64,000 bases of DNA from Synechococcus sp. KORDI-100 (lineage in GTDB: Bacteria; Cyanobacteriota; Cyanobacteriia; PCC-6307; Cyanobiaceae): the NCBI RefSeq assembly GCF_000737535.1, contig NZ_CP006269.1:744001-808000 (forward strand), written 5' to 3'. Position numbers and translations under genes: made by a program. The notes under the pieces are model-generated. The model was not told the origin of the DNA. It saw nothing but the letters and a program-made list of their open reading frames with translations, and did not search any database. Positions 29,797-46,610 of this stretch are shown here, piece after piece; positions within the stretch are counted from its first letter, which is position 1, and the number at the start of each line of letters is the position of its first letter.

Positions 29797-29806
29797 TCAT
29801 AGCATG

Positions 29807-31219
29807 CTAGGAAAAATTAAAAGCGATACAGATGCGTTCTTCAGATATACTGGTCTGAGGAATCGTTTCGTGGGGAAGAAAGCTCGGAAACAACACAACC
29901 CTGCCAGCCTTCGGCGTGATCTTCAATGGAGATGGTGTTGAGAACATCAGGTTGCCATCAGGAGAGTCATCCGATGATGTGATCTTGTCGACGCAGAGAT
30001 AAAGCACACCACTGATCTTGGCTTCCGGGTGGATATGGCGTTTCTGATATCCCCCTTGTTTCAGGATCACAGCCCAGCCGCTGATCGATTCAGGATCCGG
30101 TTCGAGCGGGATTGGAAAGGACAGCTGTTTTGACAAATAGCCGTCAAGAGCCATTTTCAAGCTTTTGTTCAGTGCCAGTACGCACGCGGTTTGAGCTCCG
30201 GCAAGCATTTCGTGGGTTTGAAACCCGTCTCGGGTTGGTTTCCCTGCCCGGTTCCAAACCAAGCTGTCGAGTGTTCGGATCTCTTCGACCAAGGTTTTCA
30301 ACACCACATCATGCTGATCGAAAAGTTGTGATGTTTGAACCAAATGGGTTGGGCTAAAGCCTGCTGGATCACCAAATTCAGCTTGCCATTTTGACGGCAA
30401 TTCACAGATGGCTGCCGTCCAACGAATGTGATCAATCGTTTTTCGATATTGCTTCAGTCGATCAGAGGCGAGCTGCCAATGTTGGGATTCGATCGCCGCA
30501 TAGCAGGCCTCCAAAGGATTCAGGGTTGCTGACGCGCCATGTTGGGAACTGGCATCGAGTTCTTGCAGTGCCTTTTTTGCCTCTGGCGCGTGGGGCACAA
30601 GTTGCTGGCAGACAAGAAAGGCTTGGCGTGCTTCATCAACTCGCCCCAGGGTTTGAAAAAAGCGCCCGAGATTGTAGTGACCCAGAAATTGCTGGGGATG
30701 TTGTTGGATCACCTGTTGATACAGCGTTTCTGCTGTTGCGTAATCACCCTGCTCCATCTGCACAATGGCCAGATTTGTGATCAGGGATGGGTCATTGGGG
30801 TTGGCACGAAGCGCTTGCTGAAGCAGTGTTTTGGCATCCGAGAGTTGCCCTGCCCGGAGGTAGGCCTCGCTGAGAGGAAGCGAGACGTCGGGCCGTTGCA
30901 ATTGGCTGGTTTCGAGATCCTTCAGCAATCGAATCACCATGCGGTAATCAGAGATCCGGAAGGCTGATTGAGCCAACATGCTTTTCAACGGATCAGGGAG
31001 AATCGCTGGATCGCGTTTCGAAAAACTTGTTTCAAACAGCTGGATCAGCTCTCGGTCGCGCTTCTGCATCTGCAAAAGCCTGGTGATATTCAGGAAGACG
31101 CCAGGATTGTTGGGGTTCTCCTGAAGAGCTCGCCGAAAGGCCCGCTCTGCGGAGCCAAGATCTCCTCGCATGGCAGCCTCCACGCCTGCACGGTTGTGAT
31201 CTTGGCCGGCTGCTGTCAT
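29807..31219 (-). CDS. TPR protein with C-terminal 2OG-Fe(II) oxygenase-like domain
   Basis: 470 residues from MTAAGQDHNRAG. Residues about 1-240 form tetratricopeptide repeats (SAERAFRRALQENPNNPGVFLN, DAKTLLQQALRANPNDPSLITN, TAETLYQQVIQQHPQQFLGHYN). Residues about 370-470 match the 2OG-FeII_Oxy_5 type: RHIHPEAKISGVLYLCVDK, GNLMFSTPSPL, GRVVLFPSFLPHETIP and ERICIAFNFS. Candidate iron ligands are the His/His-x-Glu cluster and the distal His. The substrate is unknown; TPR-linked oxygenases often act on proteins. A perfect terminator hairpin lies 12 bp before the ATG. Confidence 0.85.
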   Translation of the reverse strand: MTAAGQDHNRAGVEAAMRGDLGSAERAFRRALQENPNNPGVFLNITRLLQMQKRDRELIQLFETSFSKRDPAILPDPLKSMLAQSAFRISDYRMVIRLLKDLETSQLQRPDVSLPLSEAYLRAGQLSDAKTLLQQALRANPNDPSLITNLAIVQMEQGDYATAETLYQQVIQQHPQQFLGHYNLGRFFQTLGRVDEARQAFLVCQQLVPHAPEAKKALQELDASSQHGASATLNPLEACYAAIESQHWQLASDRLKQYRKTIDHIRWTAAICELPSKWQAEFGDPAGFSPTHLVQTSQLFDQHDVVLKTLVEEIRTLDSLVWNRAGKPTRDGFQTHEMLAGAQTACVLALNKSLKMALDGYLSKQLSFPIPLEPDPESISGWAVILKQGGYQKRHIHPEAKISGVLYLCVDKITSSDDSPDGNLMFSTPSPLKITPKAGRVVLFPSFLPHETIPQTSISEERICIAFNFS

Positions 31220-31230
31220 GGTCGTACGGC

Positions 31231-31265
31231 AAAAAAAGGGGCCAACCACCGGAGGTGGCTGCCCC
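31231..31265 (-). terminator. Intrinsic terminator after the AGE-STAS gene
   Basis: On the minus strand GGGGCAGCCACC-TCC-GGTGGTTGGCCCC forms a strong stem, followed directly by a seven-T run (31231-31237). It lies 18 bp after the AGE-STAS stop. The T tract ends 12 bp before the start codon of the next gene on the same strand, with no Shine-Dalgarno sequence in between. Confidence 0.85.
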
Positions 31266-31282
31266 TGAGTGGTTGCTGACAA

Positions 31283-33445
31283 TCAGCCAATCACTGCAAA
31301 CTCTTCGTCGAGCTCTGCATCCTTGAGCCCCTGCGTGATCTCGGGGTTCAAACCCTTGAGTTGCAGACTGAAGTTCGCACCGCGCTGCTGCTTGGTGAAC
31401 AACAGGTAATTCCAGCCGGTGTCATCAACCGACTTGAGATTGGACATGTCGAGGATCATCCCATTCATGCCGGGAACGCGTTCGACGGCGCGCTTCAGGA
31501 AGGGAAGTTTGCACTTGGTTAGATCACCATCCAGTGTGAAGGTGCCAATGGAGTTTTCGTAATTGGTCAGTCCGGCACTGAATCCAAGCCCTGCTGGTTC
31601 AATGCGCACGCGAACTCTCACGGCTTTGTCTGTTTCAGGCAGGTTGACGATCAGTTTTTCACGATCAAAGTCGGTGTAATTCTTGTCGTCAATCCAGACT
31701 TCTGCAAGCTCGATGCTGCCAGGGGGCAGCAGGTCTGGAGCGACACGCAGCTTGTTGTCCGGCCAAGCATGGGGCTCTGGCTTGAAGAAGAAGTCCATCG
31801 GCATCTTGTTCACGAGCAGGTTGGAGTAGATCGCTGCCAGGAAACAGAGTTCGAAGGAGTGATAACCAGCCATGGAGTGGCTTCCCTTACCGCGCTCGGA
31901 TCCGAGTGAATAGGGCTGACCGTTGGCAAGAACGTTGAAGTAAACACCGCCTTGCTCATAGTCAAGGAACCAGCCGTTGTAGAAGGCGCTGCCTTCTCGG
32001 GCGAAGCGCAGATATTCAGGCTTGTCGTCATAAACGCCAGCCATGATGTAATACGCAAGGATTCCTTGTTCCTGCTGCCACCAGGCCTTGCGGTCGTGCC
32101 AAACACGGCGATAGTGCTCTTCGCCATCTTTGAGCGTCCGCTCCATCATGTCGTACCAACCACCGCGCTGGTTATCGCAACCGGCAGGGGGAATAGCATC
32201 AGCAATCTGATGGGCGAAGGTTTTGTAGCTGTCCTTCGGCATCAGGCTCTGCATCCGGGTCAGGTTCCAGGCCACCTTGAGGTTGTGACCCACAACGCAA
32301 CGGGCCTGGTGGATGCCCCACTTGAGATCATGGGTCCAGTCGTCGAAGAACTTCTCGTTCATGAACGGGCTGTAGCCGTAATCCGGGAAGTGATCGCAGA
32401 TGGTGTCGAAGGTGTCCTCAAGGAATGTGGCGTAGCCCTGCTCACCCGTCGCCAGGTAGAGATTGATCAGATAAGCCGGTGCGTGGTCGCCAACGGAGTT
32501 CCAGTTCTTCTTGGCCTTGTTCACACCCAGTGAATCCGCCTTGGGGTCGAACGTGACCGGATCCACGTGAGAGTAATAACCGCCGTATGGACCATGGTCC
32601 TTGTAGTAGCGGTTCAGGAAGGAAATGGTGTCGTCAATATCCGTCCGGATGGTTGGCGATCCTGTCAGGCGATAGGTCTGGGTGGGACCAGCCAGTGCAT
32701 AGATCTGCTCGTAGCAGGGAATGGCATTACCTCCTTCATCTCCCCCAGCCGTGGAGCCCATGTACTTACGCAGTGAGCCATCACTTTGGATGTCAATTTG
32801 GCTGTACCAGTAGCAGATCCCTTCGGATTTGTTTTGATGACGGAAATGGCGTTGCATGTACTCTGTCCCGTTGATGGACGCCTCCAGGGCACGCTCATCA
32901 CCGGTGATCATGTAAGCCGTGGCAAAGCCGTAGATCAGGCGGGAGATGGTATCCAGGTTCTGAACCCCATCCTGTTTGTCGCCTTCGGCGCTGAGGTCGG
33001 TGCGGAAGTTCTTGAAGTCGATGGTTTCCCCTTCTTCCACGGAGAATTGGGATTCCAGATAGAAGTTCAACAATTGCTGGATCTGATGAATCCACCAGTT
33101 CTGCTCCTCAATTCGTAGATCATCCTTCGTTTGACCAAACAGGAGCATGTGTTTGGCTTCAAACTTCAGCCCGCTTTCCTCGGGATAAAAAATTCCGTAG
33201 GCGTGAACGAAGCGATCCTCAACGAGTATCTGCTTTATGTCAGGAGCAACCTGGAAAGGTTCGCCAAGGTTGCGAACGATTTCGGCGTAACAAGCGTCAG
33301 TAATCTTGACTGAATAGATGCGACCGTCAGATGTTTCCAGCTCGACCATTCCCTTGCAGTCGAAAATCTCCGGGTAGGAAACGCTGCGGATGTAGCCTGC
33401 AACTAGGTCGGAGAAAGGAAAGTTGAGTTGATTGGAGGTGGTCAT
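31283..33445 (-). CDS. N-acylglucosamine 2-epimerase-like barrel fused to a STAS domain
   Basis: 720 residues, probably three parts. Residues about 1-110 are a beta-rich unassigned domain (RSVSYPEIFDCKGMVELETS). Residues about 150-590 form an AGE-type (alpha/alpha)6 barrel: NLDTISRLIYGFATAYMITGD, GGYYSHVDP, WGIHQARCVVGHNLKVAWNL, WHDRKAWWQQEQGILAYYIM and GGVYFNVLANG. The H-x-x-x-A-W and WWQQ-E type residues of AGE enzymes are present. Residues about 625-720 are a STAS domain (MILDMSNLKSVDDTGWNYLLF), with Thr676 aligned to the SpoIIAA phospho-serine. No secretion signal is seen. The fusion is unusual; sugar substrate and regulation are unknown. It is downstream of glgX on the same strand. Confidence 0.8.
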   Translation of the reverse strand: MTTSNQLNFPFSDLVAGYIRSVSYPEIFDCKGMVELETSDGRIYSVKITDACYAEIVRNLGEPFQVAPDIKQILVEDRFVHAYGIFYPEESGLKFEAKHMLLFGQTKDDLRIEEQNWWIHQIQQLLNFYLESQFSVEEGETIDFKNFRTDLSAEGDKQDGVQNLDTISRLIYGFATAYMITGDERALEASINGTEYMQRHFRHQNKSEGICYWYSQIDIQSDGSLRKYMGSTAGGDEGGNAIPCYEQIYALAGPTQTYRLTGSPTIRTDIDDTISFLNRYYKDHGPYGGYYSHVDPVTFDPKADSLGVNKAKKNWNSVGDHAPAYLINLYLATGEQGYATFLEDTFDTICDHFPDYGYSPFMNEKFFDDWTHDLKWGIHQARCVVGHNLKVAWNLTRMQSLMPKDSYKTFAHQIADAIPPAGCDNQRGGWYDMMERTLKDGEEHYRRVWHDRKAWWQQEQGILAYYIMAGVYDDKPEYLRFAREGSAFYNGWFLDYEQGGVYFNVLANGQPYSLGSERGKGSHSMAGYHSFELCFLAAIYSNLLVNKMPMDFFFKPEPHAWPDNKLRVAPDLLPPGSIELAEVWIDDKNYTDFDREKLIVNLPETDKAVRVRVRIEPAGLGFSAGLTNYENSIGTFTLDGDLTKCKLPFLKRAVERVPGMNGMILDMSNLKSVDDTGWNYLLFTKQQRGANFSLQLKGLNPEITQGLKDAELDEEFAVIG

Positions 33446-33506
33446 TGGAAGTGGAGATGCGTGGGAGAAATATCAGAGAAAAGAAATTTAGAGTGTCAGG
33501 ATGAAG

Positions 33507-35675
33507 TCATGTGGTTTCTCGAGAAAAAAGAACCACAATGCTTCGCCCTGTTACTACGTATCGCCCATCGTTGATTTTGACCTGCTGGTCATAGTCAACG
33601 ATGTCTTCAGGAGAGCGCAACGATGTATCGATCGTTCTGTACCAATTAAGTCCTTCGAACTGAGGGATCTCAAAGTCGATGGCATCCCAGTACATGTTCA
33701 TCATCACGTGAATATTATTGGTGCCGTCCGTATCATCTGCAGTATCTCCCAAGGTGAAGGCCAAGCAGCGAGCCTGTGGATCATTCCATCCTGGTTGATT
33801 CACAACTGGACCATGCCAGTGAATATCACTGATGTTAAAGCGGTTAGTTTTTCCAGCAAAGTAACGGCCACTAAAATGGTTTTTGAACTTCAATCGCTTT
33901 TCAATCAGTTTCGACCAAAAGCGGATCATCTCCTGACTATCTGGAGAGTTTATTTTGTCCCAATTGAACCAATTGATCTCATTGTCGTGGCAATATGTAT
34001 TGTTATTTCCTCCTTGGCTGCGCTTGAATTCATCGCCTGCGACAATCATTGGCACACCCATGGAAATCATCATGATGGTGGCGAAGTTCTTAACCTGTCG
34101 TGCACGTAGATCGTTAATCCATTGGTCTTCTGTCTCTCCCTCAACCCCGCAATTCCAGCTCACATTATCGTTGATTCCGTCATTATTGCCTTCACCGTTG
34201 GCCCAATTGTGCTTTTCGTTGTAGGCAGTTAAGTCATAGAGGGTGAAACCATCGTGGGCTGTGATGAAGTTGATGCTGTTCACCGGTTCTTCGCGGTGCC
34301 ATTGATAGAGATCGGAGCTTCCAGTAATTCTTGATGCAACTTCACTGATCAGACCGGGGTCACCTTTGACGAAACCGCGGATCGCGTCGCGGTACTTGCC
34401 ATTCCACTCAGCCCAGCGAGCTCCAGGGAAATAGCCGATTTGATAAAGCCCTGCGGCATCCCAGGCCTCAGCAATAACCTTGCTTTTTGCGAGCACATCA
34501 TCCAGTTCAATGGCCCAGATCACTGGCGGATGTTCCATCGGTGCACCCGACTCGCCTCGACTGAGTACAGATCCTTCATCAAAACGGAAGCCATCAACAT
34601 GCATCTCTTCCACCCAGAAACGAAGAGAGTCCAGAATCAGTTTTTCTCCGACGGGATGATTGCAGTTGAAGGTGTTACCACAGCCTGTGTAGTCGTAATA
34701 GAACTCCCTCGATCCATCAACTCCGGTGAGGTAGTAGTAGGTTGAATTATCAATTCCCTTGAAACAGAATGTCGGCCCCTGATGATTCCCTTCATCAGTG
34801 TGGTTGAAGACCACATCCAGAATTACCTCAATCCCTGCTTTGTGCAGGGCTTTGACCATATCTCTGAATTCCTTGATGTGTTGTCCATCGTTGTTGGAGA
34901 CGCAGTAAGCCTGGTGAGGTGCAAAATAACCAACGGTGCTGTATCCCCAGTAATTCACCAGTTTTTTACCGTCGTGCTCACGCAGCACATCGGTATGGTC
35001 GAAGCAGAGAGGCGGCAGTAGTTCAACAGCCGTGACGCCTAATTGCTTGAGATAAGGAATTTTTTCGATTAGGCCTAGAAATGTTCCTGGGTTTTTGACT
35101 CCACTGGTTGGACTTTTGGTGAATCCACCCACATGCATTTCATAGATCACAGACTGCGCCATGGGAGTCTGAAGTGGTCGATCACCTTCCCAGTCGTAAT
35201 CATCGATATCGATGATTACGCTGCGCATGCTGGTGTGAAGGTTGTCTCCGGGGAAACAGGCGTCACCTCGTTTCCACCGCGAGAGATTGTTGGCCTTGGC
35301 GTATGGGTCAATCAGAACCTTCTCGGGGTCAAAGCGGTGACCATTCCATGGTTCGTGGGGGCCATCGACGCGATAGGCATAACCCATCCCATGGCGGGCG
35401 CCTTCAATGAACACATGCCAGATATTGAAACTGTGATTTTTCTGGGAATCGAGTTCGATCACTCGAACCGGGTCAGCATCTTCTGGGCTGTTAAACAGCA
35501 AGAGGGTCACTGCCGTTGCGTTTGCGCTGTAGAGCGCAAAGTTCACCCCCGATTCCGTCACTGATGCTCCAAACGGATGGGAGGAGCCAGACCAGCGGCG
35601 CAACGCAGTGCCGGTTGGTTCCAGTGGATAACCACCTAACGTCGTCGTGATGGGGGCAGTCGCAAGTGACGTCAT
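33507..35675 (-). CDS. glgX: Glycogen debranching enzyme (isoamylase-type, GlgX)
   Basis: 722 residues. It hydrolyses alpha-1,6 branches of limit-dextrin glycogen. A CBM48 N-terminal domain (SSHPFGASVTESGVNFALYSANA) is followed by the GH13_11 catalytic domain: VIYEMHVGGFTKSPTSGV, VILDVVFNHTDEGN, nucleophile Asp in VDGFRFDEGSVLSRGESG, acid/base Glu in VIAEAWDAAGLYQIG, and NFITAHDGFTLYDL. The C-terminal beta domain is complete. It is 61 bp upstream of the AGE-STAS gene on the same strand. A second copy elsewhere in the genome is possible. Confidence 0.93.
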   Translation of the reverse strand: MTSLATAPITTTLGGYPLEPTGTALRRWSGSSHPFGASVTESGVNFALYSANATAVTLLLFNSPEDADPVRVIELDSQKNHSFNIWHVFIEGARHGMGYAYRVDGPHEPWNGHRFDPEKVLIDPYAKANNLSRWKRGDACFPGDNLHTSMRSVIIDIDDYDWEGDRPLQTPMAQSVIYEMHVGGFTKSPTSGVKNPGTFLGLIEKIPYLKQLGVTAVELLPPLCFDHTDVLREHDGKKLVNYWGYSTVGYFAPHQAYCVSNNDGQHIKEFRDMVKALHKAGIEVILDVVFNHTDEGNHQGPTFCFKGIDNSTYYYLTGVDGSREFYYDYTGCGNTFNCNHPVGEKLILDSLRFWVEEMHVDGFRFDEGSVLSRGESGAPMEHPPVIWAIELDDVLAKSKVIAEAWDAAGLYQIGYFPGARWAEWNGKYRDAIRGFVKGDPGLISEVASRITGSSDLYQWHREEPVNSINFITAHDGFTLYDLTAYNEKHNWANGEGNNDGINDNVSWNCGVEGETEDQWINDLRARQVKNFATIMMISMGVPMIVAGDEFKRSQGGNNNTYCHDNEINWFNWDKINSPDSQEMIRFWSKLIEKRLKFKNHFSGRYFAGKTNRFNISDIHWHGPVVNQPGWNDPQARCLAFTLGDTADDTDGTNNIHVMMNMYWDAIDFEIPQFEGLNWYRTIDTSLRSPEDIVDYDQQVKINDGRYVVTGRSIVVLFSRETT

Positions 35676-35850
35676 TTCTGATCAGAAAAATGATTGAGTT
35701 GAATCTGTCTTTTGGAGTTGGTTCAGATGTTGCCAATCAGGGCGCCATAAATGTTGAAGACCTGTCCCTTAATTTCCCTATAGCACTGGATTGACATGGA
35801 GAGTTTTGGGAGGCCGAGAACTGTTTTGATACCCTGACCGACGGCTGCCA

Positions 35851-38800
35851 TCAAATGGATTGAATGACATCGCTATCGATCAATTCTTGTGAATTAATGT
35901 CGACGATCAAGCTCGTCGCTCCATTTTTTAGGGTTAATACGCTGTCGTCCCCTTGGGCTGTGATGGTGTATTTGTCGTTAGGGACTTCGATCATATCCTG
36001 TTCAATATCCAGATCAGAAATTGTATTGTTTCCTTTTTTATTTTTAATCACGAAAGTATCATAACCTCGCCCACCTTCCAAGGTGTTCTCTCCTGCCCCT
36101 CCGTTGAGCCGATCTTCACCCTGATTTCCTCGAAGGATATCATCACCCTTGCCTCCGCCGATAACATCTCCGCCTTGTTTTCCTTCTAACGAATCATTGC
36201 CCTGGCCTCCAGTGATCGTATCAATCCCTGGTGTTCCTTCGAGATTATTATCGTCGTTTGATCCATTGAATCTCTCGCCGTGAGTGAGCGTTGTTCGACG
36301 TGCTCTAAAGACCTGGTTTGTGCCTTTCTGGAAAGTATCTGAGTCGATGTAGAAGATGAAATCCCGCCCATCGATTGTCTCTCCCATTAAACCCCCGTTA
36401 CCTCGTTCATCAGGTTTAGAGGAATGATCAAAGAACGTGCCGTTAATGCTTTTCAGTTGTTCGTTGATATTGAGGCTTGATTCAAGTGTTGGGATATCAG
36501 CGCTTGATTTCATGCTGGACATGCTTTTGCTTGTATGTGATTCATGGCCACTGCCACCGGTGTAGTAAAAACTTTTGATTGCTGGATCTTTCCTTGTTGA
36601 GTTTGCGTCCGTTTTTACAGCGATGAGATTCGCAAAGCTGGATTGAATCACTTGGTTATCAACTTCATCTTGTGTTTGCAGATTTTCAGGTCTTGGATTA
36701 ATGTATCCAGACGATACGTCAACGTTTCCGCTGTAGTCGCCAAATGGCTGAAAATCATCCTCAAAGAGTTCCGTTGCTGCATGCATCGCTTTGCCGTCCA
36801 TTCGATCCACATCTTGGACGGCGCTATCACCAATGTCCGCGCCTTGATCGTTTTGGATGACTTCAAAGATGCTTCGTCCGCTAAAGCCATGCACATATCC
36901 ACTGCCACCATCACCCTGTCCGACAATAAGGTCAACAAAATTGTCGCTATTAATATCACCGGCTGCGATGTTGATCGTGGTTTTCCCTTTACCTTGGAAT
37001 GGATAAATACGTCCCATCAGTGAATAGTCAGCCCCGCTATACATTTCGATCACAGGCTTCATCATTGGACCGCCGATTCCAGCGATAACGTCGGCAAAGC
37101 CGTCACCGTCGATATCACCAACCGCAATGGAGGTTTCACTGTCGTTTGCGATCTCAATGTCTTGGAAGGGAGTAATGTCCTTCAGGATGTAAACATCGTC
37201 CGTCCCGTCAATGGTGAGTTGTGGTTCGGCTTGGATTGTTGATTCAGGATTCGTTGCGAACGTAATATCCGCGCCACCGTAGAAGCTTTCTGAGCCAAAA
37301 ACTTCGCCTTTCGCACCTTCGAATCGCCCCGTGCCATCAATCACGGTGTACAGCTCTTCACCATCTCCGTCAGAATCAACATCATCAACACCATGCGACT
37401 CGCTTGTAATTAAAGAGTCTTGACCATCCTCTGTTGCAAAGACAAAGCTGCCTTCTGGATAGCTACTTGGGATGGTTTCGCCATCGGCGCCCGTGATTTC
37501 ACTGGGATCTGTGTTGGCATTCCAGCCGGCGTAGCTGCCATCATCGTTGAAAACATCTTCGAGATATGTCGTCCCTTTAAATGTATTGATGCCCCATGTA
37601 CCGGGCCCACCGGTCCCTTTGTGATTATCAGGGTTGTCTGTTTTCTTCTTCCAGTACACATCACTTTCTAATGTGAGTTGTGACAGGTTTGCTTCTTCAT
37701 TAATCACCGTCTTCGTCATATCGTCTTCAGCGACTGGCGCAAAGCCGGCAAACTTGTAATGACCCGTAGCTGCCTGCTTTACGGCATCTCCATCAAACAC
37801 ACGAATGGTGTAATCACCACTTGTTGAATTTTGGATCGTAACAATGTCCGTAATGTTATCACTAGATCCTTTGGTTCCGCTGGGATAATTGACGTCATTG
37901 TCTAAAGCAGCGTTGCCAAAAAACTTTCCATAGTTAATATCTCCAATCGCGACATTAATGTTCTTGTTATCTTCTTCGTCTGCGTAAGGAGTTAGCTGGT
38001 ATTGCTGTCGTGTATCGCTGCCAAGTCTTAGGCTGACGCTGTTTCGTGCTTGATCACTCGCTATAAAAGTTGAATCGGTATTCAGGATAACCTTCACGGC
38101 TTGCATCATACCGGCATCCTCATGAAAGAGGATGTGACAGTGATTGACGTAGGCGCCCGGGAAATCCTCAAAGCGCATCCGGATTTTTGTTGAAAATGGC
38201 TGAACATTCTCGGTATCAGACGCTGCTGCTTGGCCATAGGGATTATCTGCAGTTTGCGTACCATCGATATAAGCACCTCCAAGCAACACAGTGTCAGCGA
38301 GTTGATTGCTTGGATACGCCGTAATCTGGTCTGTCGTTAAACCGTTGATCTCAGTAACGATGAAATCATTTTGGTGGATGTGGAAAGGGTGCCATTCTCC
38401 CCATTGGCCTACTTTCCCATACGATTCATTGTTAATGGTCCATTCTTCTGTGGTCCCAAGCATCGGCATGGCCACGACAGTTTGTTCTTGGGGCGTGTGG
38501 CCGAAATATCGTCCATTAATACGGTAAGCACCTTCAAAATCAGCTGGATCGTTATCACTTGGCGGATAGCTGCCCACTCCATTATCACCAAACATGTAAT
38601 ACTCATCAGGCATGGCTGCCCAGACAAATTCGCGTGTTTTAAGTTTTCCCTTCTCAAGTTTTTTGGTCGTTGTTGTCATCCAAGCGTCGATTTCTTCTTG
38701 CTCTTTTGTGATGTAATTCCAAGGTTCTGGTGCTGCGGGCCGCTCATCAATCTCTTCACCTGTAACGTTGACCGTTGCCAACACCTGAGGTCCCCAGACA

Positions 38801-40227
38801 AGGTGACCGTCGTTAAAGCCGTAATATGTCGATTCTCCAACATCTTCGCTGACAGTTGATGTGGAATCCGTATTTGATATCTCGGGCGCGAGGTCACCCA
38901 AGATTTCATTGGTGCCGTTGCTGAGGAAGTAATATTTGCCTGGTTTGGTGAACGCATGTTGCAACGTCATCCGCGCACCGGGTGCGATGGCGGGCGTTTC
39001 AGTTTGTTCGGAAAGCCCTTCCTCCGCAGCGCCCGAAACATCTCCGTCGACGGCGACGAGTTGGAATTCTTCGAGGCTTAATTCATCTTCATGCTCACGA
39101 ACAAGCTGAATCACATGATGTGAATTGACTGCGAAGTTGAGGAAGCCAAACAGGTTCCATTCACCAACTTTGGCATCAATTGTTGGATTGTATTGGCCGT
39201 TAACAGTATGGATAATGTTTTCAATGGGTGCGCCATTCATCCCAAATCCATAGTAAGGGCCAAAGGCAACGGGGTTGGATGCTACAAGTTGCGGGTCATA
39301 GTTATTTGGCATGTAGTTGTAAGCGATATAGTCCGCTTCTGACACGTTGTATGTTGCATTTCCTTCAGCATCGGTGCTGACTACTTCCGCAGGGGTAGCG
39401 ACGCGATAAGAGGTTCCATCTGGATCTTGGTTTACAGGATCAGTGGGAGATGCAGCACGCTCCTCTTGGTTGAGCCCAAAAGTCTGCAAACTCATCCAGT
39501 AAACTGGATCTGTCACCGGGTTGAAATTATCTAAGTCGTCGGTTTCTTCTGTTGAGGGCTGAATGAGAAGAGGGCCAGCCAAGCCTTTTGAGACCTGAAC
39601 ATTTGTGGCTCCGTGAAGATGCGGGTGATACCAGTCTGGTCCTACAAAGTGATCATCAGGAACTTTGATTTCTGTATCCCAGCTGGTGCCTGAATCAATG
39701 GTTACCAGTACGTTGTCGCTGTTTCCTTGCGCAGAAACGTGAAGGCCGTGGGTATGCAGATTCGTATCGTCAAAGTAGATTGATGCCGAATCTTCTGGTA
39801 GGTCATTGATGAGTCGTACTTTAATCGTGTCACCAGGATCAACGACGATTAACGGCCCCTGAGAGCTTCCTGTGCCGCCGTTATAAAATTGAAAATTATC
39901 ATCGTAGGAGGAATCATTGCTTGTGTTATCCGCAATGAGCTTTCCTAAACCAGGAATGAACAGTTCATTGAATGCAGAGAGGTTGAGCTCAAGCTCAACA
40001 ACGTCGCTCTCTGGTCCCCAGGACGAGTAATACAATCCATTGGGGTCTTCGTACGTATAGTTTCCGTTTTTATAATCGGCCTGTCCTTTTTGCCATTCCT
40101 GCCAGGCACTGGTGTATGGGATCGTTACGTCTGGATGAGGTAAGACTTTCAGATAACCGTCACCATATCCTGGGCTCCAAGAGTCGAAAAGGGATTGCCC
40201 AATGGTGTAGAAATCCTTGAGAGCCAT
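35851..40227 (-). CDS. Giant RTX multicopper oxidase
   Basis: 1458 residues from MALKDFYTIG. All four copper-binding motifs are present: H158-T-H160-G, H201-P-H203-L-H205-G, H613-PF-H616-I-H618, and H696-C697-H698 with H702 and M707 (type 1 copper). The oxidase spans about 80-715. Then come an unassigned beta-rich region, FG-GAP-like repeats with DIDGDGFADVIAGIGG and GDINSDNFVDLIVGQGDGG (about 1020-1115), and RTX nonapeptides (GGQGNDSLE, GGGKGDDIL, GGAGENTLE, about 1323-1393). There is no Sec signal; C-terminal RTX repeats imply type I secretion. Likely substrates are Mn(II), phenols or Cu(I), undecided. Confidence 0.9.
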   Translation of the reverse strand: MALKDFYTIGQSLFDSWSPGYGDGYLKVLPHPDVTIPYTSAWQEWQKGQADYKNGNYTYEDPNGLYYSSWGPESDVVELELNLSAFNELFIPGLGKLIADNTSNDSSYDDNFQFYNGGTGSSQGPLIVVDPGDTIKVRLINDLPEDSASIYFDDTNLHTHGLHVSAQGNSDNVLVTIDSGTSWDTEIKVPDDHFVGPDWYHPHLHGATNVQVSKGLAGPLLIQPSTEETDDLDNFNPVTDPVYWMSLQTFGLNQEERAASPTDPVNQDPDGTSYRVATPAEVVSTDAEGNATYNVSEADYIAYNYMPNNYDPQLVASNPVAFGPYYGFGMNGAPIENIIHTVNGQYNPTIDAKVGEWNLFGFLNFAVNSHHVIQLVREHEDELSLEEFQLVAVDGDVSGAAEEGLSEQTETPAIAPGARMTLQHAFTKPGKYYFLSNGTNEILGDLAPEISNTDSTSTVSEDVGESTYYGFNDGHLVWGPQVLATVNVTGEEIDERPAAPEPWNYITKEQEEIDAWMTTTTKKLEKGKLKTREFVWAAMPDEYYMFGDNGVGSYPPSDNDPADFEGAYRINGRYFGHTPQEQTVVAMPMLGTTEEWTINNESYGKVGQWGEWHPFHIHQNDFIVTEINGLTTDQITAYPSNQLADTVLLGGAYIDGTQTADNPYGQAAASDTENVQPFSTKIRMRFEDFPGAYVNHCHILFHEDAGMMQAVKVILNTDSTFIASDQARNSVSLRLGSDTRQQYQLTPYADEEDNKNINVAIGDINYGKFFGNAALDNDVNYPSGTKGSSDNITDIVTIQNSTSGDYTIRVFDGDAVKQAATGHYKFAGFAPVAEDDMTKTVINEEANLSQLTLESDVYWKKKTDNPDNHKGTGGPGTWGINTFKGTTYLEDVFNDDGSYAGWNANTDPSEITGADGETIPSSYPEGSFVFATEDGQDSLITSESHGVDDVDSDGDGEELYTVIDGTGRFEGAKGEVFGSESFYGGADITFATNPESTIQAEPQLTIDGTDDVYILKDITPFQDIEIANDSETSIAVGDIDGDGFADVIAGIGGPMMKPVIEMYSGADYSLMGRIYPFQGKGKTTINIAAGDINSDNFVDLIVGQGDGGSGYVHGFSGRSIFEVIQNDQGADIGDSAVQDVDRMDGKAMHAATELFEDDFQPFGDYSGNVDVSSGYINPRPENLQTQDEVDNQVIQSSFANLIAVKTDANSTRKDPAIKSFYYTGGSGHESHTSKSMSSMKSSADIPTLESSLNINEQLKSINGTFFDHSSKPDERGNGGLMGETIDGRDFIFYIDSDTFQKGTNQVFRARRTTLTHGERFNGSNDDNNLEGTPGIDTITGGQGNDSLEGKQGGDVIGGGKGDDILRGNQGEDRLNGGAGENTLEGGRGYDTFVIKNKKGNNTISDLDIEQDMIEVPNDKYTITAQGDDSVLTLKNGATSLIVDINSQELIDSDVIQSI

Positions 40228-40378
40228 CCTGAATGTTTTAGGCACTACTTCTAAGGTATTCACGGCAACTGATCTGGACCATATGTTTGCCTCTGCTCAC
40301 CAAAAAACAGAAACGATCAGGTTCCGTCTAAAGAGTTTCTATCGCTCTTCTGACTATGGGCTTTTTGTTGCTAGTGCC

Positions 40379-40404
40379 CAAAAAAAGGTGGGAGATGTCC
40401 CACC
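40379..40404 (-). terminator. Intrinsic terminator after the VOC gene
   Basis: The minus strand carries GGTGGGA-CATC-TCCCACC (40387-40404) followed by a run of seven T bases reading towards 40380. It ends the VOC transcript and lies about 150 bp upstream of the oxidase start, so the oxidase gene needs its own promoter between them. Confidence 0.85.
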
Positions 40405-40457
40405 CCTATGTTGCTTGTCTTGTGGACTTAATCAAAAGATGCGAATCAACGCCGTGA

Positions 40458-41213
40458 TCAACCTTGCGGCCAGGTATGTGCGGTTTTGTTCAGCTTGTTG
40501 TATTGCTCCATGGCCTTGATAAAGTTTTCACGACAGACAGACCTTACTTGATTGAATTCCAGTTGTTCGCCATTAGGCCCCTTGGCGTAGATCAACGCCC
40601 AGCCCTCAAAAGATCCCGGGAATTCAGTCATTGCATAACTGGCAGGTGCTTTATCCAGGTCATCTCTTGATTCAACATCAATTTTACGGTTGATGGCCAC
40701 TTCTGTTAAACCTTTTTTATGAGATTCTTCAACCAACTTATTCGCGAATTCTGTCATATCGACGTCTGATTTAACGTGAAATGACAGGTGTGGAACATTG
40801 CCAAAGCCAACACATGACGTAATTGATTTAAAGATGTTGGGTGCATATGGACCACCTTCCGCTTCTGCGCCGCGGAAATGAAGTAGCTCCAGATTGGTGT
40901 TGCCGAATTGAATGAAACGAACGTCCAGATTATCTTTACCGCTGCGGAGATCAGGAACTCCGTAGTACTCAGGCGAGTGTTCACCGTCTTTGCTGTTCAT
41001 TTCATCCAATTGGAACAGTAGATTATGCATTTCTGAACCATAGAAACCGTCTCCTCCAACAGCCAGTCGGCCTCCGAGAATGTCAATGTAAAAAGTAAGT
41101 GACTTCTTTAAATCGGGAGTGGTCATCCCGAAATGCTGAATCCCCTGCAGCATATGCCCCAATGCTGAGGGAGATTCATTGGTGTCCGGAGAATAGAGCT
41201 CCATGATGTTCAA
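40458..41213 (-). CDS. VOC-superfamily (glyoxalase/extradiol dioxygenase-like) protein
   Basis: 251 residues (the start could be MELYSPDTN, 9 bp later). Two beta-alpha-beta-beta-beta VOC modules: IQHFGMTTPDLKKSLTFYIDILGGRLAVGG, and later PHLSFHVKSDVDMTEFANKLVEES with FEGWALIYAKGPNGEQLEFNQV. His and Glu positions in the I-Q-H-F and G-E-Q-L-E-F elements are plausible metal ligands. Family members include glyoxalases, fosfomycin-resistance enzymes and ring-cleavage dioxygenases; the substrate is unknown. It lies between the oxidase and TolC genes on the same strand. Confidence 0.8.
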   Translation of the reverse strand: MNIMELYSPDTNESPSALGHMLQGIQHFGMTTPDLKKSLTFYIDILGGRLAVGGDGFYGSEMHNLLFQLDEMNSKDGEHSPEYYGVPDLRSGKDNLDVRFIQFGNTNLELLHFRGAEAEGGPYAPNIFKSITSCVGFGNVPHLSFHVKSDVDMTEFANKLVEESHKKGLTEVAINRKIDVESRDDLDKAPASYAMTEFPGSFEGWALIYAKGPNGEQLEFNQVRSVCRENFIKAMEQYNKLNKTAHTWPQG

Positions 41214-41313
41214 ACTGATTCATACCAATACTAATCAGGCTGAAGCAATGCGAACTCTCCGTGCAGGCGTCTGTATGTCAGTGAATCAATACATGCTCGC
41301 AAAGGTCTTTGAA

Positions 41314-42924
41314 TTAACCTTCTTTTAGGGTTTTGACAGCTTCATCGAGCATCTTTGAAACCCCAACTGGCCAGATTGATGTGTAGCGATAAAGCTTTGC
41401 TAAAGAATTGTTATATACGAAAATTGATTTTGTATAAGCCTCCGACGCTAGTGATACAGCATTTGCTGCTGCTGTGAACGCTGTAGCGTCGATTAAATTT
41501 TGTTGGTACAGAATTTTACTGGTATCTCTTGCCTTCTTTGCGTTGATCAATGCTGCCTTGGAGGTGTCTAAACTCATTTTGGCAGTTGTATATTCAGCGA
41601 ATGCTGTCGCCGTTTGAGAGGCAACCATATCTCTCGAAGCTTGCGCTTTGGCGAGTGACTGTTTAGATGCATACTTTGCACTACGAGACTTTGCATCGTT
41701 GACTGTCCCGTCAAAATTCCAACTAAAGATCAATCCAATGTTTGCACTTGGACCCCAGCTCCAGGTCTTATTATTCTTTTTAGCATCTGATGCACCGTAT
41801 ATCCCGTTTTGGGAATTGTAATCCACGTAGCCATAGAGTGATAACTTTGGAAGGTAAGAATAACTGAATGATGTCGCCAGATAGCTCTGGGATTTCGCTA
41901 TTGTTTGAGCAGCCAGAATTTCTTCACGATGAGCAAGAGCATGTTCAATAGTTGGCATTAGTTCCATGTCCCAACTTCCCAGAGGTCGCATCTGAAAATC
42001 ATCAGATGGTTTGATTAATGTTCCAATCGGCAAACCCATTGCCTTTGCCATGTTTGCTCCAGCACGAATCAGCTTGACGTGCATACTGATGAGTTGCTCT
42101 AGCTGAGCATATAACGTTGCTTTCGACTGTTGGACAGCATTTTGGTTGATCAACGTTGGATCTGCATTGTATTTTGCTTGTGCTTGGGAGAGTTGCTCAA
42201 CGTTTGCACGATAATCGAGTTCTAACCCATCCAAAAATTTGATTTCACTGTAAAGGGCAAAGTATCCTTCCTGGACAGCGAGTACTGTGTCTCGTACGGT
42301 CATATTAAAAAGTAATTCTTCTGCTTTCGCAGCCTCAGTTGAACTGTTGATAACAGCTCCTCGGGGCATATCAAAAAATGTCCATCGACCAGCTACTGCA
42401 GGAACAAAAGTATCGATAATGGTGTACTCATTTGCTTTTGTTTTTTCTAAGTATGTTTTGCCGTCCGTTGTTTCAACTGTCGTGTATGCACGAGCTTTAG
42501 AGGATGTGTAGCGTTGACCAATCGTCGGCCAAGTGGGAACGATATTGACGTCTCCATATGGACCTGCTCCGGATGCTGTTGGCCACCATAAGCGCTTATC
42601 ACTTATAGCACTCCACTGTTTTGATTGAACCGAACGATAAGCCGCCTGAATTGTGGGGTTATTAGCGATGGCATAGGAGATTGCTTGATCCAAGGTATAT
42701 GGCTGTGAGCGACCATCGAAGTCTCGTCTGATCGCTGCAAGCTGATCACTTGTTTCTTGAAATGTTTCATCTCCATATTCCAGAGAGTCAAAGGTCGTTT
42801 GCTCTGAGGGATCGGAGTAAGTTTGGGCCAAAAAACCGTTCTGGGATTGGTTGGCGTAACCCTGTGGTATGGCGAGTAGTCCTAAAAACTGTGTGGTTGA
42901 TAGAAATGCAATTATTCGTTTCAT
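41314..42924 (-). CDS. TolC-family outer membrane channel protein
   Basis: 536 residues from MKRIIAFLSTTQFLGLLAIPQGYA (signal peptide). Two outer-membrane efflux protein repeats form the TolC barrel and coiled tunnel: YTLDQAISYAIANNPTIQAAYRS, LFNMTVRDTVLAVQEGYFALY, and later LGLIFSWNFDGTVNDAKSRSAKYASKQSLA with ASRDMVASQTATAFAEYTTA. It is the outer-membrane part of type I secretion or RND efflux. No HlyD or ABC partner is in the window. Its position two genes upstream of the RTX oxidase suggests it could export it. The start is 146 bp from the divergent EthD gene. Confidence 0.9.
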   Translation of the reverse strand: MKRIIAFLSTTQFLGLLAIPQGYANQSQNGFLAQTYSDPSEQTTFDSLEYGDETFQETSDQLAAIRRDFDGRSQPYTLDQAISYAIANNPTIQAAYRSVQSKQWSAISDKRLWWPTASGAGPYGDVNIVPTWPTIGQRYTSSKARAYTTVETTDGKTYLEKTKANEYTIIDTFVPAVAGRWTFFDMPRGAVINSSTEAAKAEELLFNMTVRDTVLAVQEGYFALYSEIKFLDGLELDYRANVEQLSQAQAKYNADPTLINQNAVQQSKATLYAQLEQLISMHVKLIRAGANMAKAMGLPIGTLIKPSDDFQMRPLGSWDMELMPTIEHALAHREEILAAQTIAKSQSYLATSFSYSYLPKLSLYGYVDYNSQNGIYGASDAKKNNKTWSWGPSANIGLIFSWNFDGTVNDAKSRSAKYASKQSLAKAQASRDMVASQTATAFAEYTTAKMSLDTSKAALINAKKARDTSKILYQQNLIDATAFTAAANAVSLASEAYTKSIFVYNNSLAKLYRYTSIWPVGVSKMLDEAVKTLKEG

Positions 42925-43070
42925 TTTCGATGGAATCTTGAAACTTCTGAAATCTAGAGAGTTTTTATTATTTTGCAGTGCTTTTGTCATGAATTGCACG
43001 TATTGGCGCACGACCCAATTGCTCAATTTTTTCCATCGCATTTATCATGGATATGTGTTGCTCTCTAATC

Positions 43071-43970
43071 ATGGCCTTTGCTGACGCTCGCGAGGAGGTG
43101 GTTTTTTATGTTCCCCTCTGGATCCGCAACGGTATTTCTCTTGAGCAATTTGACAACTACTGGCGTGATGTTCATGGTCCTGTTTGTGCTCGTCTTCCTG
43201 GTCAGATGGAGTACTGGCAGTATCACTTGTCTGCCTATGACGGGGGCATTTTCCCTGAGATCAAGAACATAACGATCAATACAGATCCAGCTGACCAATT
43301 TCTTGGAATTGCTGAGTTAACATTTTCGACGGTTGAGGATCGTGCTACTTGGTTTACAGCCTCAGCAATTTTAATGGATGACGAACATAATATATTCAGC
43401 AAAGCCATTGGCTACACAACCTCAATGGGAAATACACGCACCGTTTTAAGCCGTTTGTCAGAGCCCTATCCCAATGGTCCGTTGTCTGAAATGCGTTATC
43501 ACATTCTTCTGCGTAAGGAGGATGCTGTTTCCGTTGAAGACTTCAGAGATTATGTTAGGGAAACTTTAATTCATGCCATCTCTAAGCGTCCTGAAGTTGT
43601 TCAACTGCGTTATCACCTGTTTGATGCGATTGATCTGTCTCGCCCAGACGCACAAGGTGTCGAACACGTTGAAAAAGATGGCAAGGACTATCACGCCGCT
43701 TTTGAGATTTCGTTTGCGAATGGTTTAGATCGTGAGAGTTTCTTTGCTTCCAAGGAATTCACCCAAGCCCTCACCGACGGGGCTTTGATGATCGACATGA
43801 TCAAGCCTTGTGCCGAGCGATTTGCAGCGACGTTTGTTCGGGATCACCAGATGACGCTTGCTGGTCAACGTGGATCATCTGTCGCCCAGTTGGTTGCCGA
43901 ATTGGGAGCTCTCAATCAGATTCGTGATGATATCGGTTCTCTGATGTTGACGAATAAGCTGGAAGGCTAA
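43071..43970 (+). CDS. EthD-like dimeric alpha/beta barrel protein (two domains)
   Basis: 299 residues from MAFADAREEV. The first domain (about 5-140) carries the EthD signature QFDNYWRDVHGPVCARLPG and a late WFTASAILMDDEHNIF. The second (about 145-270) has MRYHILLRKEDAVSVEDFRDYV, RPEVVQLRYHLFD and SFANGLDRESFFASKEFTQAL. Family members act on small quinone- or ether-like molecules, but true activity here is unknown. It is divergent from TolC and followed by a terminator. Confidence 0.75.
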   Translation: MAFADAREEVVFYVPLWIRNGISLEQFDNYWRDVHGPVCARLPGQMEYWQYHLSAYDGGIFPEIKNITINTDPADQFLGIAELTFSTVEDRATWFTASAILMDDEHNIFSKAIGYTTSMGNTRTVLSRLSEPYPNGPLSEMRYHILLRKEDAVSVEDFRDYVRETLIHAISKRPEVVQLRYHLFDAIDLSRPDAQGVEHVEKDGKDYHAAFEISFANGLDRESFFASKEFTQALTDGALMIDMIKPCAERFAATFVRDHQMTLAGQRGSSVAQLVAELGALNQIRDDIGSLMLTNKLEG

Positions 43971-43994
43971 ATAATTAGCAATTAATTCAGTATT

Positions 43995-44030
43995 GCTGCT
44001 GAAGTCATCTCTTCAGCAGCTATTTATTTG
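43995..44030 (+). terminator. Intrinsic terminator after the EthD-like gene
   Basis: A perfect ten-base-pair stem GCTGCTGAAG/CTTCAGCAGC (43995-44004 and 44011-44020) is followed by TATTTATTTG on the plus strand. It lies 24 bp after the EthD stop and next to the stop of the convergent SnoaL-like gene. Confidence 0.8.
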
Positions 44031-44821
44031 TTAAACCAACTGGTGAAACCTGTTTGTGAGGCGTCTGGATATACTCGCCATTCGACAATTTTTCCGTTTT
44101 CAAAACGGTAAATATCTGTGCATGGGACCTGGACGAATTTTTCTGTTAATTTATTGACGTAATTGGCGTCCATTTCGATGATCACGGTATCGTCGTCTGC
44201 TTTCCAGAGACCGCGCTGATTATGAGTCGTTAATTTCAGTATTTTGTAGATGTATTGAAGTGTTTTTGATATTTTGCCTGGCCCGACGACTGGATCGTTG
44301 GCACCAACCTTGTAAACCACATCCTCGCCAAAGAAACTTTCAAACAGTTTCCAATCTTCTTTTTTGAGTGCTGAATACATTTCAGCTACTTTTTTTCTGA
44401 TATCTTCATGGCTGATGCCTGAGCCTGTGTCGTCTTGTCTGTCTGATGGAAGTGGCTCGTTGTAGACAGGACTGATGTCCATAAAAATTCTGAGCTCTTT
44501 AACTTTGCCGTTTTCATCGAATTCCAGTGCATCGCAGCATGGCAGCGTGTGTTGTGCTCCATTGGCACATGTGTAGCTGATTTCCATCTGAAGGTATAGT
44601 CGGCCTCCGGATTCGTGATGATTGACGATATTGTGCTCTACAGATGAAACACGCTTTAAAAATTCTTTGGAGTCGTCGATGATTTCCTGTGGCGTATGTG
44701 CGGCTGAGTTATTGGCGAATTTGTACAGACATTCATCAGAAAAGTGTGCGGCAAAGCGTTCGACTTGCATAGATTCTCCTGCCGAAAATAGTCGCTTGGC
44801 TTGCTCTAAGTTTTTCGACAT
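44024..44821 (-). CDS. Tandem SnoaL/NTF2-like protein
   Basis: 265 residues with two NTF2-like domains, about 1-125 and 135-265. Each has a helix-helix-sheet layout. First: EQAKRLFSAGESMQVERFAAHF, SDECLYKFANN, LPCCDALEFDENGKVKELRIFMD. Second: VAEMYSALKKEDWKLFESFFGEDVVYKVG, VPCTDIYRFENGKIVEWRVYPDA. The repeated D-x-x-x-F-x-x-G-K-x-x-x-x-R element shows an internal duplication. Function is unknown. It is convergent with the EthD gene and separated from the SulP gene by about 94 bp. Confidence 0.75.
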   Translation of the reverse strand: MSKNLEQAKRLFSAGESMQVERFAAHFSDECLYKFANNSAAHTPQEIIDDSKEFLKRVSSVEHNIVNHHESGGRLYLQMEISYTCANGAQHTLPCCDALEFDENGKVKELRIFMDISPVYNEPLPSDRQDDTGSGISHEDIRKKVAEMYSALKKEDWKLFESFFGEDVVYKVGANDPVVGPGKISKTLQYIYKILKLTTHNQRGLWKADDDTVIIEMDANYVNKLTEKFVQVPCTDIYRFENGKIVEWRVYPDASQTGFTSWFNK

Positions 44822-44915
44822 AACGCTACTGGTCTATTCGGATATCTGAATGCTAGCTACGGTTTTGCAATTGCCATTGTGAAAATATTGTTGAGAAGTT
44901 GCCAGGCCTGTGCTG

Positions 44916-46610
44916 TTATTTTTGACTGGTGTTGATCAAAAGGTTGGCCTGCTGTAGCGCTTCGAGACGGCTTGGCAGGAGGTTCCCGACACCGAACTGT
45001 TTTAGTCTTCTTTCCACTTTTCCGGTTGCGCCCGTTACGTAGGCCTGGCGATCACTGGTTTTGGCTTCTTGAACCATTCGCTCGATGGCAAGTGTGGCTG
45101 TGACCCCTAAATGAGGGACATTGCTGATGTCTAAGATTAGAACTTTATAGTTTTCAACTAATCCCATTCGGTCTGAAATTCCCTTGGCTGCGCCGAAGCT
45201 GAGGGGTCCTCGCAGGCTGAAGAGCATCACGCCGCCATGGCATTGATTGAACTGAAACTGCTCTTCCTCGTTGAGATCATTTGTAAGCTGAGCTGAGCTA
45301 TTCTGGTCTAGGGGATTATCAGCTTCGATGTTTTCAAGCTGAACCTGAGTGATGGAGTCAACAGTCAGTAAATTGGCAATAAACATGCCGATCAGAACGC
45401 CCCATATCAAGTCCCAGAAGACAGTCATTATCAGTACGCTGTACATCAGCACAGCTGTTTTCCCTGATAATCGGTGGGCTCGCAGTAAGAATCCCCAATC
45501 GATAATGTCGAGCCCAACTTTGATCAGAATTCCAGCGAGCAGAGCTGTTGGAATTTCACTGGCCAGCGGTCCTGCTCCCAGCAGAACAACCAGCAGAGCC
45601 AGTGAGTGCGTCATCCCTGAAAGGGGGGTTTGCCCCCCCGATTTAATGTTGATGACGGTGCGCATCGTGGCTCCAGCCCCTGGCAGCCCTGAAAGGAACC
45701 CCGCTGCTGCATTGGCGATTCCCTGTCCGATCAGTTCACGATTTGAGTCGTGTCTGGTCTGAGTGATGTTGTCGGCAACAAGCGATGTGAGCAGGGAATC
45801 AATGGCTCCGAGCAGGGCCAGCACCACGCCGGCTCGGATCAGTTCTGGAAGGTATTGGGTGAAATTAGGGATTTGAATTCGCAGCCCTGCTTCGGGGATA
45901 TCGCCAATCCTGTTAATCGCTTCCAGGCCCATCGATTGCAATCGTTCGTCGTTGAACAGCACCAACGACAGAGGGGTGACCAGCAACAACGCCAGCAGTG
46001 GTGATGGCAACCACTGTCTGATCCGTGCCGGAGTTAAAAAGACCACGGCCAGGGTCATCAACCCCACGGCAATTGCAGCTGGGTTGGGTTGAAATCCCTC
46101 GATCAACCCTTGCAGTGACGACAGCACCCCTCCGCGGGTGCTGATGCCGAGAAAGGGCCCGATCTGTAAGACAAGAATGATGAATCCGATGCCGGACATG
46201 AATCCGGATACAACCGAATACGGAACAAGGGTGATGTATCTCCCCAGCCGCAGAACCCCAAGAAGCGCTTCAAACAATCCGCCCAGGACAACGGCCGCCA
46301 TCACCAATGGCAGCAGCTCACCAGCATTCAGGTCTGTTGAAACGCCAACGGCAGCCAGGCTGGAGACCACTCCAGCGACGGTGACACTCATCGGGCCTGT
46401 GGGCCCGCTCACCTGCGATGGAGTCCCTCCGAAGAGTGCCGCCAGAAATCCGGCGACGATGGCGCCATAGAGCCCGTAGATCGCACCTCCTGGTCCCAGG
46501 GCCGCATTACCGAAGGCGAGGGCGAGTGGCAAAGCCACCACAGCTGCTGTGATGCCACCCAGCAAGTCGCCACGAAGATTGCGCCCGTGAAGGCCGTGGA
46601 TCAGCGGCAT
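44916..46610 (-). CDS. bicA: SulP-family anion transporter, BicA-like (possible Na+/bicarbonate symporter)
   Basis: 564 residues with a transmembrane SulP core and a C-terminal STAS domain (LSFGAAKGISDRM, LDISNVPHLGVTATLAIERM). The opening NLRGDLLGGITAAVVALPLALAFG, the GGTPSQVSGPTGPMSVTVAG motif, SVVSGFMSGIGFI, DSLLTSLVADNITQTRHDSN and GLPGAGATMRTVINI all follow the BicA bicarbonate transporter pattern. Bicarbonate import for the CO2-concentrating mechanism is the best guess; sulfate or other anions cannot be excluded. It follows a thioredoxin-like gene by 1 bp. Confidence 0.85.
   Translation of the reverse strand: MPLIHGLHGRNLRGDLLGGITAAVVALPLALAFGNAALGPGGAIYGLYGAIVAGFLAALFGGTPSQVSGPTGPMSVTVAGVVSSLAAVGVSTDLNAGELLPLVMAAVVLGGLFEALLGVLRLGRYITLVPYSVVSGFMSGIGFIILVLQIGPFLGISTRGGVLSSLQGLIEGFQPNPAAIAVGLMTLAVVFLTPARIRQWLPSPLLALLLVTPLSLVLFNDERLQSMGLEAINRIGDIPEAGLRIQIPNFTQYLPELIRAGVVLALLGAIDSLLTSLVADNITQTRHDSNRELIGQGIANAAAGFLSGLPGAGATMRTVINIKSGGQTPLSGMTHSLALLVVLLGAGPLASEIPTALLAGILIKVGLDIIDWGFLLRAHRLSGKTAVLMYSVLIMTVFWDLIWGVLIGMFIANLLTVDSITQVQLENIEADNPLDQNSSAQLTNDLNEEEQFQFNQCHGGVMLFSLRGPLSFGAAKGISDRMGLVENYKVLILDISNVPHLGVTATLAIERMVQEAKTSDRQAYVTGATGKVERRLKQFGVGNLLPSRLEALQQANLLINTSQK

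Follow-up and report, generated by a model that had tools for sequence, protein, structure and literature searches.

The question raised by this locus is what a STAS domain does at the C-terminus of an enzyme resembling sugar epimerases, and whether it places that enzyme under the control of a kinase. The locus lies in the window, that is, the whole 64,000-nucleotide stretch of Synechococcus sp. KORDI-100 DNA that was analyzed. An earlier note, made from the sequence alone, had described a barrel of the AGE type fused to a STAS domain and proposed that the enzyme is controlled by an anti-sigma-type kinase or targeted to a partner. A literature search on AGE enzymes in combination with STAS domains returned one paper, which was unrelated.

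Domain composition of the fusion protein

The gene is a single open frame on the reverse strand (31283..33445), with an ATG start and its stop codon at 31283–31285, and encodes a protein of 720 residues; all of the domains and residues described below are on the same strand. An AGE barrel and a C-terminal STAS domain are indeed fused in this one protein, as fold matches and family profiles confirm. Because single-sequence searches with the window protein are weak, the domain assignments rest on its relatives. In a single scan, GTDB genomes yielded 54 loci with identities of 33–89% (53–89% for full-length relatives); the family alignment comprises 43 proteins. A whole-protein model built on this alignment has a mean pLDDT of 85 and a pTM of 0.84.

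Residues 107–549 (31799..33127) form an (alpha/alpha)6 barrel that matches the AGE superfamily over its full length. When the modeled barrel was compared with solved structures, N-acylglucosamine 2-epimerase, cellobiose 2-epimerase, YihS and mannose isomerase were found at Z scores of 25–31, with 367–395 residues aligned, rmsd of 2.4–3.5 and the full domain covered; the next-best folds had Z of about 21. A search of the PDB with the family profile ranked AGE enzymes first (best E 9.6e-8), while phmmer with the single window sequence found no match there, so that the profile search alone succeeded. Similarly, Pfam GlcNAc_2-epim (PF07221) does not match the window protein by itself and matches 26 of the 43 family members at E 0.01 or better, several of them over the cut-off. 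Profile–profile alignment (hhalign) of the barrel with cyanobacterial AGE proteins was collinear (E 4e-7). By fold and family-profile comparison, the AGE assignment of the earlier note is confirmed.

The N-terminal domain, residues 1–106 (33128..33445), had been noticed previously and called unknown. It is present and has an OB fold: searching with the full-length model hardly covered the OB and STAS parts, and the OB part, then folded alone (pLDDT 83), had only OB folds among its top PDB matches (Z 8–9). A beta-rich linker, residues 550–617 (31595..31798), seen by DSSP in the model and shared in the alignment by fused and unfused proteins, leads to the STAS domain, residues ~618–720 (31286..31594). 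With the window protein alone the Pfam STAS match is below the gathering cut-off (E 0.0046); of the 43 family members that were scanned, 18 have a match to Pfam STAS, and relatives exceed the cut-off (e.g., 2.5e-10 in genome G025). A STAS profile finds SpoIIAA at E 2e-11, alignable across the whole domain, and the beta-alpha topology of STAS domains is present in the model of the window protein. The STAS similarity, which was to be checked by HMM search, is secured by these relatives and by the SpoIIAA match, and the phylogenetic tree described below agrees with it.

Active site of the barrel

Arg169 (32939..32941) corresponds by hhalign to the conserved N-terminal arginine of AGE enzymes, and His387 (32285..32287), in the GHxxE motif, and His529 (31859..31861) correspond to the first and second catalytic histidines. 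All three residues are invariant in 43 of 43 relatives, and the paired histidines have a catalytic role in AGE enzymes (PMC5726027). The glutamate of GHxxE and the arginine of an HxxR motif, both taken as reference from the cyanobacterial AGEs compared, are in contrast replaced by Lys390 (32276..32278) and Glu532 (31850..31852), according to hhalign and again in 43/43; possibly these two residues form an inverted ion pair. Because of both replacements throughout the family, we describe the window protein as a putative AGE-fold enzyme with a signature of its own rather than a standard GlcNAc or cellobiose epimerase. It further differs from the superfamily in its added OB and STAS domains and is ~17% identical to it. 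With its glutamate and arginine changed, the barrel may catalyze another reaction, or no reaction at all.

Gene arrangements and the icfG-type module

Two gene arrangements are found among the relatives. In the first, an unfused enzyme of 605–613 residues, which has no STAS domain, is encoded in an operon with the order enzyme-STAS1-GlgX-STAS2-kinase, often with a PP2C gene. In the second, the enzyme-STAS fusion usually follows a GlgX of another subtype than that of the icfG-type operon (65–85% vs ~45% identity), and kinase, phosphatase and free STAS genes are all absent within the fused loci. In the window, the glycogen-debranching enzyme GlgX directly upstream (33507..35675, reverse strand; TIGR02100 over the cut-off) is an accessory second copy, and the fusion frame begins 61 bp downstream of glgX. 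Genomes with the enzyme have at least two GlgX copies, and each of the four genomes without it that were checked has one. Directly downstream, a protein with TPR and 2OG-Fe(II) oxygenase domains was identified by Pfam (29807..31282, reverse strand); where the sequence extends far enough downstream, it adjoins almost every fused locus of picocyanobacteria.

The icfG cluster of Synechocystis (slr1852–slr1862) encodes Slr1855, annotated as a GlcNAc 2-epimerase, together with Slr1856, GlgX1, Slr1859, IcfG and Slr1861 (PMC8670252, PMC12329169). The fused loci share with it an Slr1855-like enzyme, GlgX and STAS, and some of them also carry slr1852-like (81–87%), CMD-like and DJ-1-like companions. 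Since these companions are retained, the fused locus can be regarded as the icfG module minus kinase and phosphatase. It differs from the cluster in that enzyme and STAS are joined, STAS1, the Slr1861-type kinase and the IcfG phosphatase are missing, and the phospho-serine is lost. The fused locus is, then, the previously described icfG-type module in altered form, a likeness that rests on gene content and order and not on Synechocystis sequences.

The enzyme occurs in 10 of 101 genomes of the family to which the window genome belongs (4 fused, 6 unfused). One freshwater genome (G110) has both the fused protein (L016) and an unfused operon copy (L043); the match to the latter was reported with two TGA codons, yet the frame at L043:6004–7836 is open. 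Modules of the order enzyme-STAS-GlgX-STAS, resembling icfG, were also seen beyond cyanobacteria, in a deltaproteobacterium (L037) and in Treponema (L038). Four contigs labeled 'uncultured proteobacterium' (L003, L010, L021, L042) have Synechococcus-like loci, and the bin is probably mislabeled or mixed.

Origin of the fusion and selection on the STAS domain

In the core tree, a branch with full support (100/100) separates the fused enzymes from the others. The fused STAS domains likewise group together in the STAS tree (100/100), where they join STAS2 (Slr1859-like) of the operon with a support of 99/94, and not STAS1; this tree has ~100 columns, and its finer branching is unsure. The trees indicate that the fusion arose once, with a STAS domain of STAS2 (Slr1859-like) descent. 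Gene order had suggested fusion with the neighboring STAS1 (Slr1856 type), which is ruled out by the placement of the fused domains with STAS2.

The ratio of STAS to enzyme divergence is 3.4–3.6 in the fused proteins and 1.8–2.1 in unfused operons. It is also raised in filamentous fusions that keep the phospho-serine, so the faster divergence tracks fusion and not phosphosite loss. As dN/dS of the STAS domain in close pairs is 0.02–0.18 (several pairs have saturated or uneven dS, and just the low ratio is used), the domain is under purifying selection; a value well below 1 rules out a decaying remnant. Phe683 and Gln686 are invariant across STAS2 and all fused STAS domains, and Phe683 is missing from STAS1, which fits a contact surface that was kept and does not involve phosphorylation.

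Purifying selection and the conserved Phe683 and Gln686 also speak for a STAS domain that serves as a tether or scaffold, docking the enzyme onto GlgX, the TPR protein, another STAS domain or a transporter and leaving its activity unchanged; binding or targeting of a partner was the alternative offered by the earlier note. STAS domains bind partners, and most fused loci have GlgX as a direct neighbor. The partner, however, is a candidate only, and docking is hard to tell from allostery by sequence; we consider a pure tether rather unlikely, although it deserves to be kept in mind.

The phosphosite and the kinase

The STAS fold of the window protein is shared with the anti-sigma factor antagonists SpoIIAA and RsbV. 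As the earlier note had it, the D-S-S-G of SpoIIAA aligns with D674-D675-T676-G677 of the window protein. The note took Thr676 (31418..31420) for the phosphorylated residue, and here the alignment disagrees: Thr676 matches Ser59 of SpoIIAA, whereas Ser58, the phospho-acceptor, is matched by Asp675 (31421..31423). That the first position of the pair is the relevant one agrees with SypA, whose phosphosite is the first Ser (PMC10120452), and with Ssr1600, in which the first Ser matters more (PMC12329169). Thr676 is variable as well, with Thr in 16, Ile in 6 and Ala in 1 of the 23 proteins of the picocyanobacterial-Acaryochloris branch, and both points rule it out as the phosphosite. A partner-switch antagonist would have Ser or Thr where this protein has Asp675.

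The Ser58 column holds Ser in 46/46 other STAS sequences (21/21 STAS1, 13/13 STAS2, 5/5 of the family-wide (U) STAS and 7/7 fused proteins of filamentous cyanobacteria and Prochloron) and in 0/23 of the picocyanobacterial-Acaryochloris branch, where Asp is found in 20, Gly in 2 and Asn in 1. An Asp of the kinase interface (position 643), which we assigned by matching to D25 of Ssr1600, is present in 39/39 free STAS proteins and in 0/23 of that branch. The phosphosite was probably lost once, in an ancestor, and the change was inherited, so that 23 of 23 should not be read as 23 independent observations. The window STAS domain thus differs from SpoIIAA and RsbV in the Asp for Ser58, in the absence of the interface Asp and in its attachment to an enzyme.

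A search of the genome for a kinase and a phosphatase, as had been proposed, found one small RsbW-type kinase of the family-wide type, possibly PmgA, with N-box and G-box residues, and one SpoIIE-type phosphatase, neither of them in the fusion locus. A further STAS protein, not fused and with its DSSG intact, is encoded in the genome, which thus has an ordinary partner switch in addition to the fusion. The other fused-only picocyanobacterial genomes checked likewise have a single small RsbW-type kinase of the family-wide type, and no second small kinase was found in them. In the picocyanobacterial genome where a fused protein and an unfused operon occur together, the operon kinase is present too. 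Acaryochloris has Asp at the phosphosite although its genome encodes several RsbW-type kinases, which counts against the reading favored below. Neither the RsbW-type kinase nor the PP2C that would be expected at the locus of a partner-switch antagonist is seen in the fused loci.

These data bear directly on the suggestion that an RsbW-type kinase phosphorylates the STAS domain, on Thr676 or nearby, and so controls the epimerase or a partner. The operons of unfused relatives do include such kinases, filamentous fusions keep the serine, and the window genome retains kinase, phosphatase and DSSG protein. The link of the family to partner switching accordingly stands, with unfused relatives in icfG-type operons. 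Kinase control of this particular protein is unlikely, however, because the acceptor position is occupied by Asp675, Thr676 is off-site and replaced by Ile or Ala in 7/23, the Asp of the kinase interface is gone and neither kinase nor phosphatase is encoded at the locus; we hold phospho-regulation of the window fusion to be improbable. Phosphorylation elsewhere in the STAS domain is possible, as is a sigma-antagonist function without phosphorylation. That the fusion is a regulator of a sigma pathway, its STAS domain binding an anti-sigma factor constitutively or never and its barrel serving as a sugar sensor, is very doubtful: the STAS proteins of the icfG cluster count as putative anti-sigma antagonists (PMC12329169) and the replaced glutamate and arginine would suit a sensor, but the two catalytic histidines and the arginine never vary, the residues lost are those of the kinase interface, and the gene is strongly linked to glgX and to further genes of metabolism.

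Proposed function

The reading that we favor, with somewhat more confidence than doubt, is a GlgX-coupled sugar epimerase or isomerase in which a partner-switch regulator has turned into a hard-wired, kinase-independent domain. An icfG-type metabolic enzyme (Slr1855-like, OB plus AGE barrel) gained an Slr1859-type STAS domain by a single fusion. The accessory GlgX most likely releases maltodextrins from a glucan with alpha-1,6 branches, and the His/His/Arg site of the barrel would epimerize or isomerize a reducing-end or free sugar at C1/C2, which is the substrate that we infer. In the ancestral operon the STAS domain was a protein of its own and the substrate of an RsbW-type kinase; its phospho-serine is retained in the fusions of filamentous cyanobacteria and Prochloron. 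In picocyanobacteria and Acaryochloris the phospho-serine changed to Asp (rarely Asn or Gly), along with loss of the kinase-contact Asp and of kinase and phosphatase from the locus. We infer that the STAS domain of this branch is no longer phosphorylated and acts as a structural or allosteric domain, fixed in a phosphorylated-like state, rather than as a switch.

A bolder proposal, which we offer tentatively, is that the STAS2 phosphoprotein Slr1859 acts on the enzyme Slr1855 and not on a sigma factor, in a metabolic partner switch linking carbon signaling to glycogen-derived sugar. The fusion would then reveal the partner, and picocyanobacteria would have frozen the phospho-mimic state. For Slr1856 and Slr1859, the STAS phosphoproteins of the icfG operon, no known target is listed (PMC12329169), and the natural fusion of a STAS2-type domain to the enzyme of that operon points to a specific candidate. 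The natural series of free with Ser, fused with Ser and fused with Asp may also illustrate how, as genomes are streamlined, a switch based on phosphorylation is built permanently into an enzyme.

Surrounding genes

The earlier note had also mentioned, in the same window, a SulP transporter that carries a STAS domain itself, and this was found at 44916–46610. SulP transporters resemble the fusion in having a C-terminal STAS domain on a larger protein; unlike the fusion protein, SulP is a membrane transporter, and the two are unrelated outside STAS. It belongs to an accessory block (~29800–46610) in which EthD, SnoaL, glyoxalase, SulP, multicopper oxidase and TPR-2OG genes surround GlgX and the fusion, and which stands before DnaJ-like (47139), HemB-like (47947) and MutS2-like (49474) frames. 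Within the block, a 1470-residue protein (35851–40263, reverse strand) has multicopper-oxidase domains with FG-GAP and RTX repeats and adjoins an outer-membrane efflux protein (41314–43041); it looks like a type I-secreted oxidase. Parts of the block recur in relatives, and EthD also adjoins the unfused operon in genome G035. A second set of companions (a ThDP enzyme, a 137-residue glyoxalase, SnoaL, NTF2-like and ThiJ-like proteins) occurs at fused and unfused loci alike (L113, L114, L011, L017–L019, L024, L041 and L120), and its recurrence beside the enzyme suggests an undescribed pathway.
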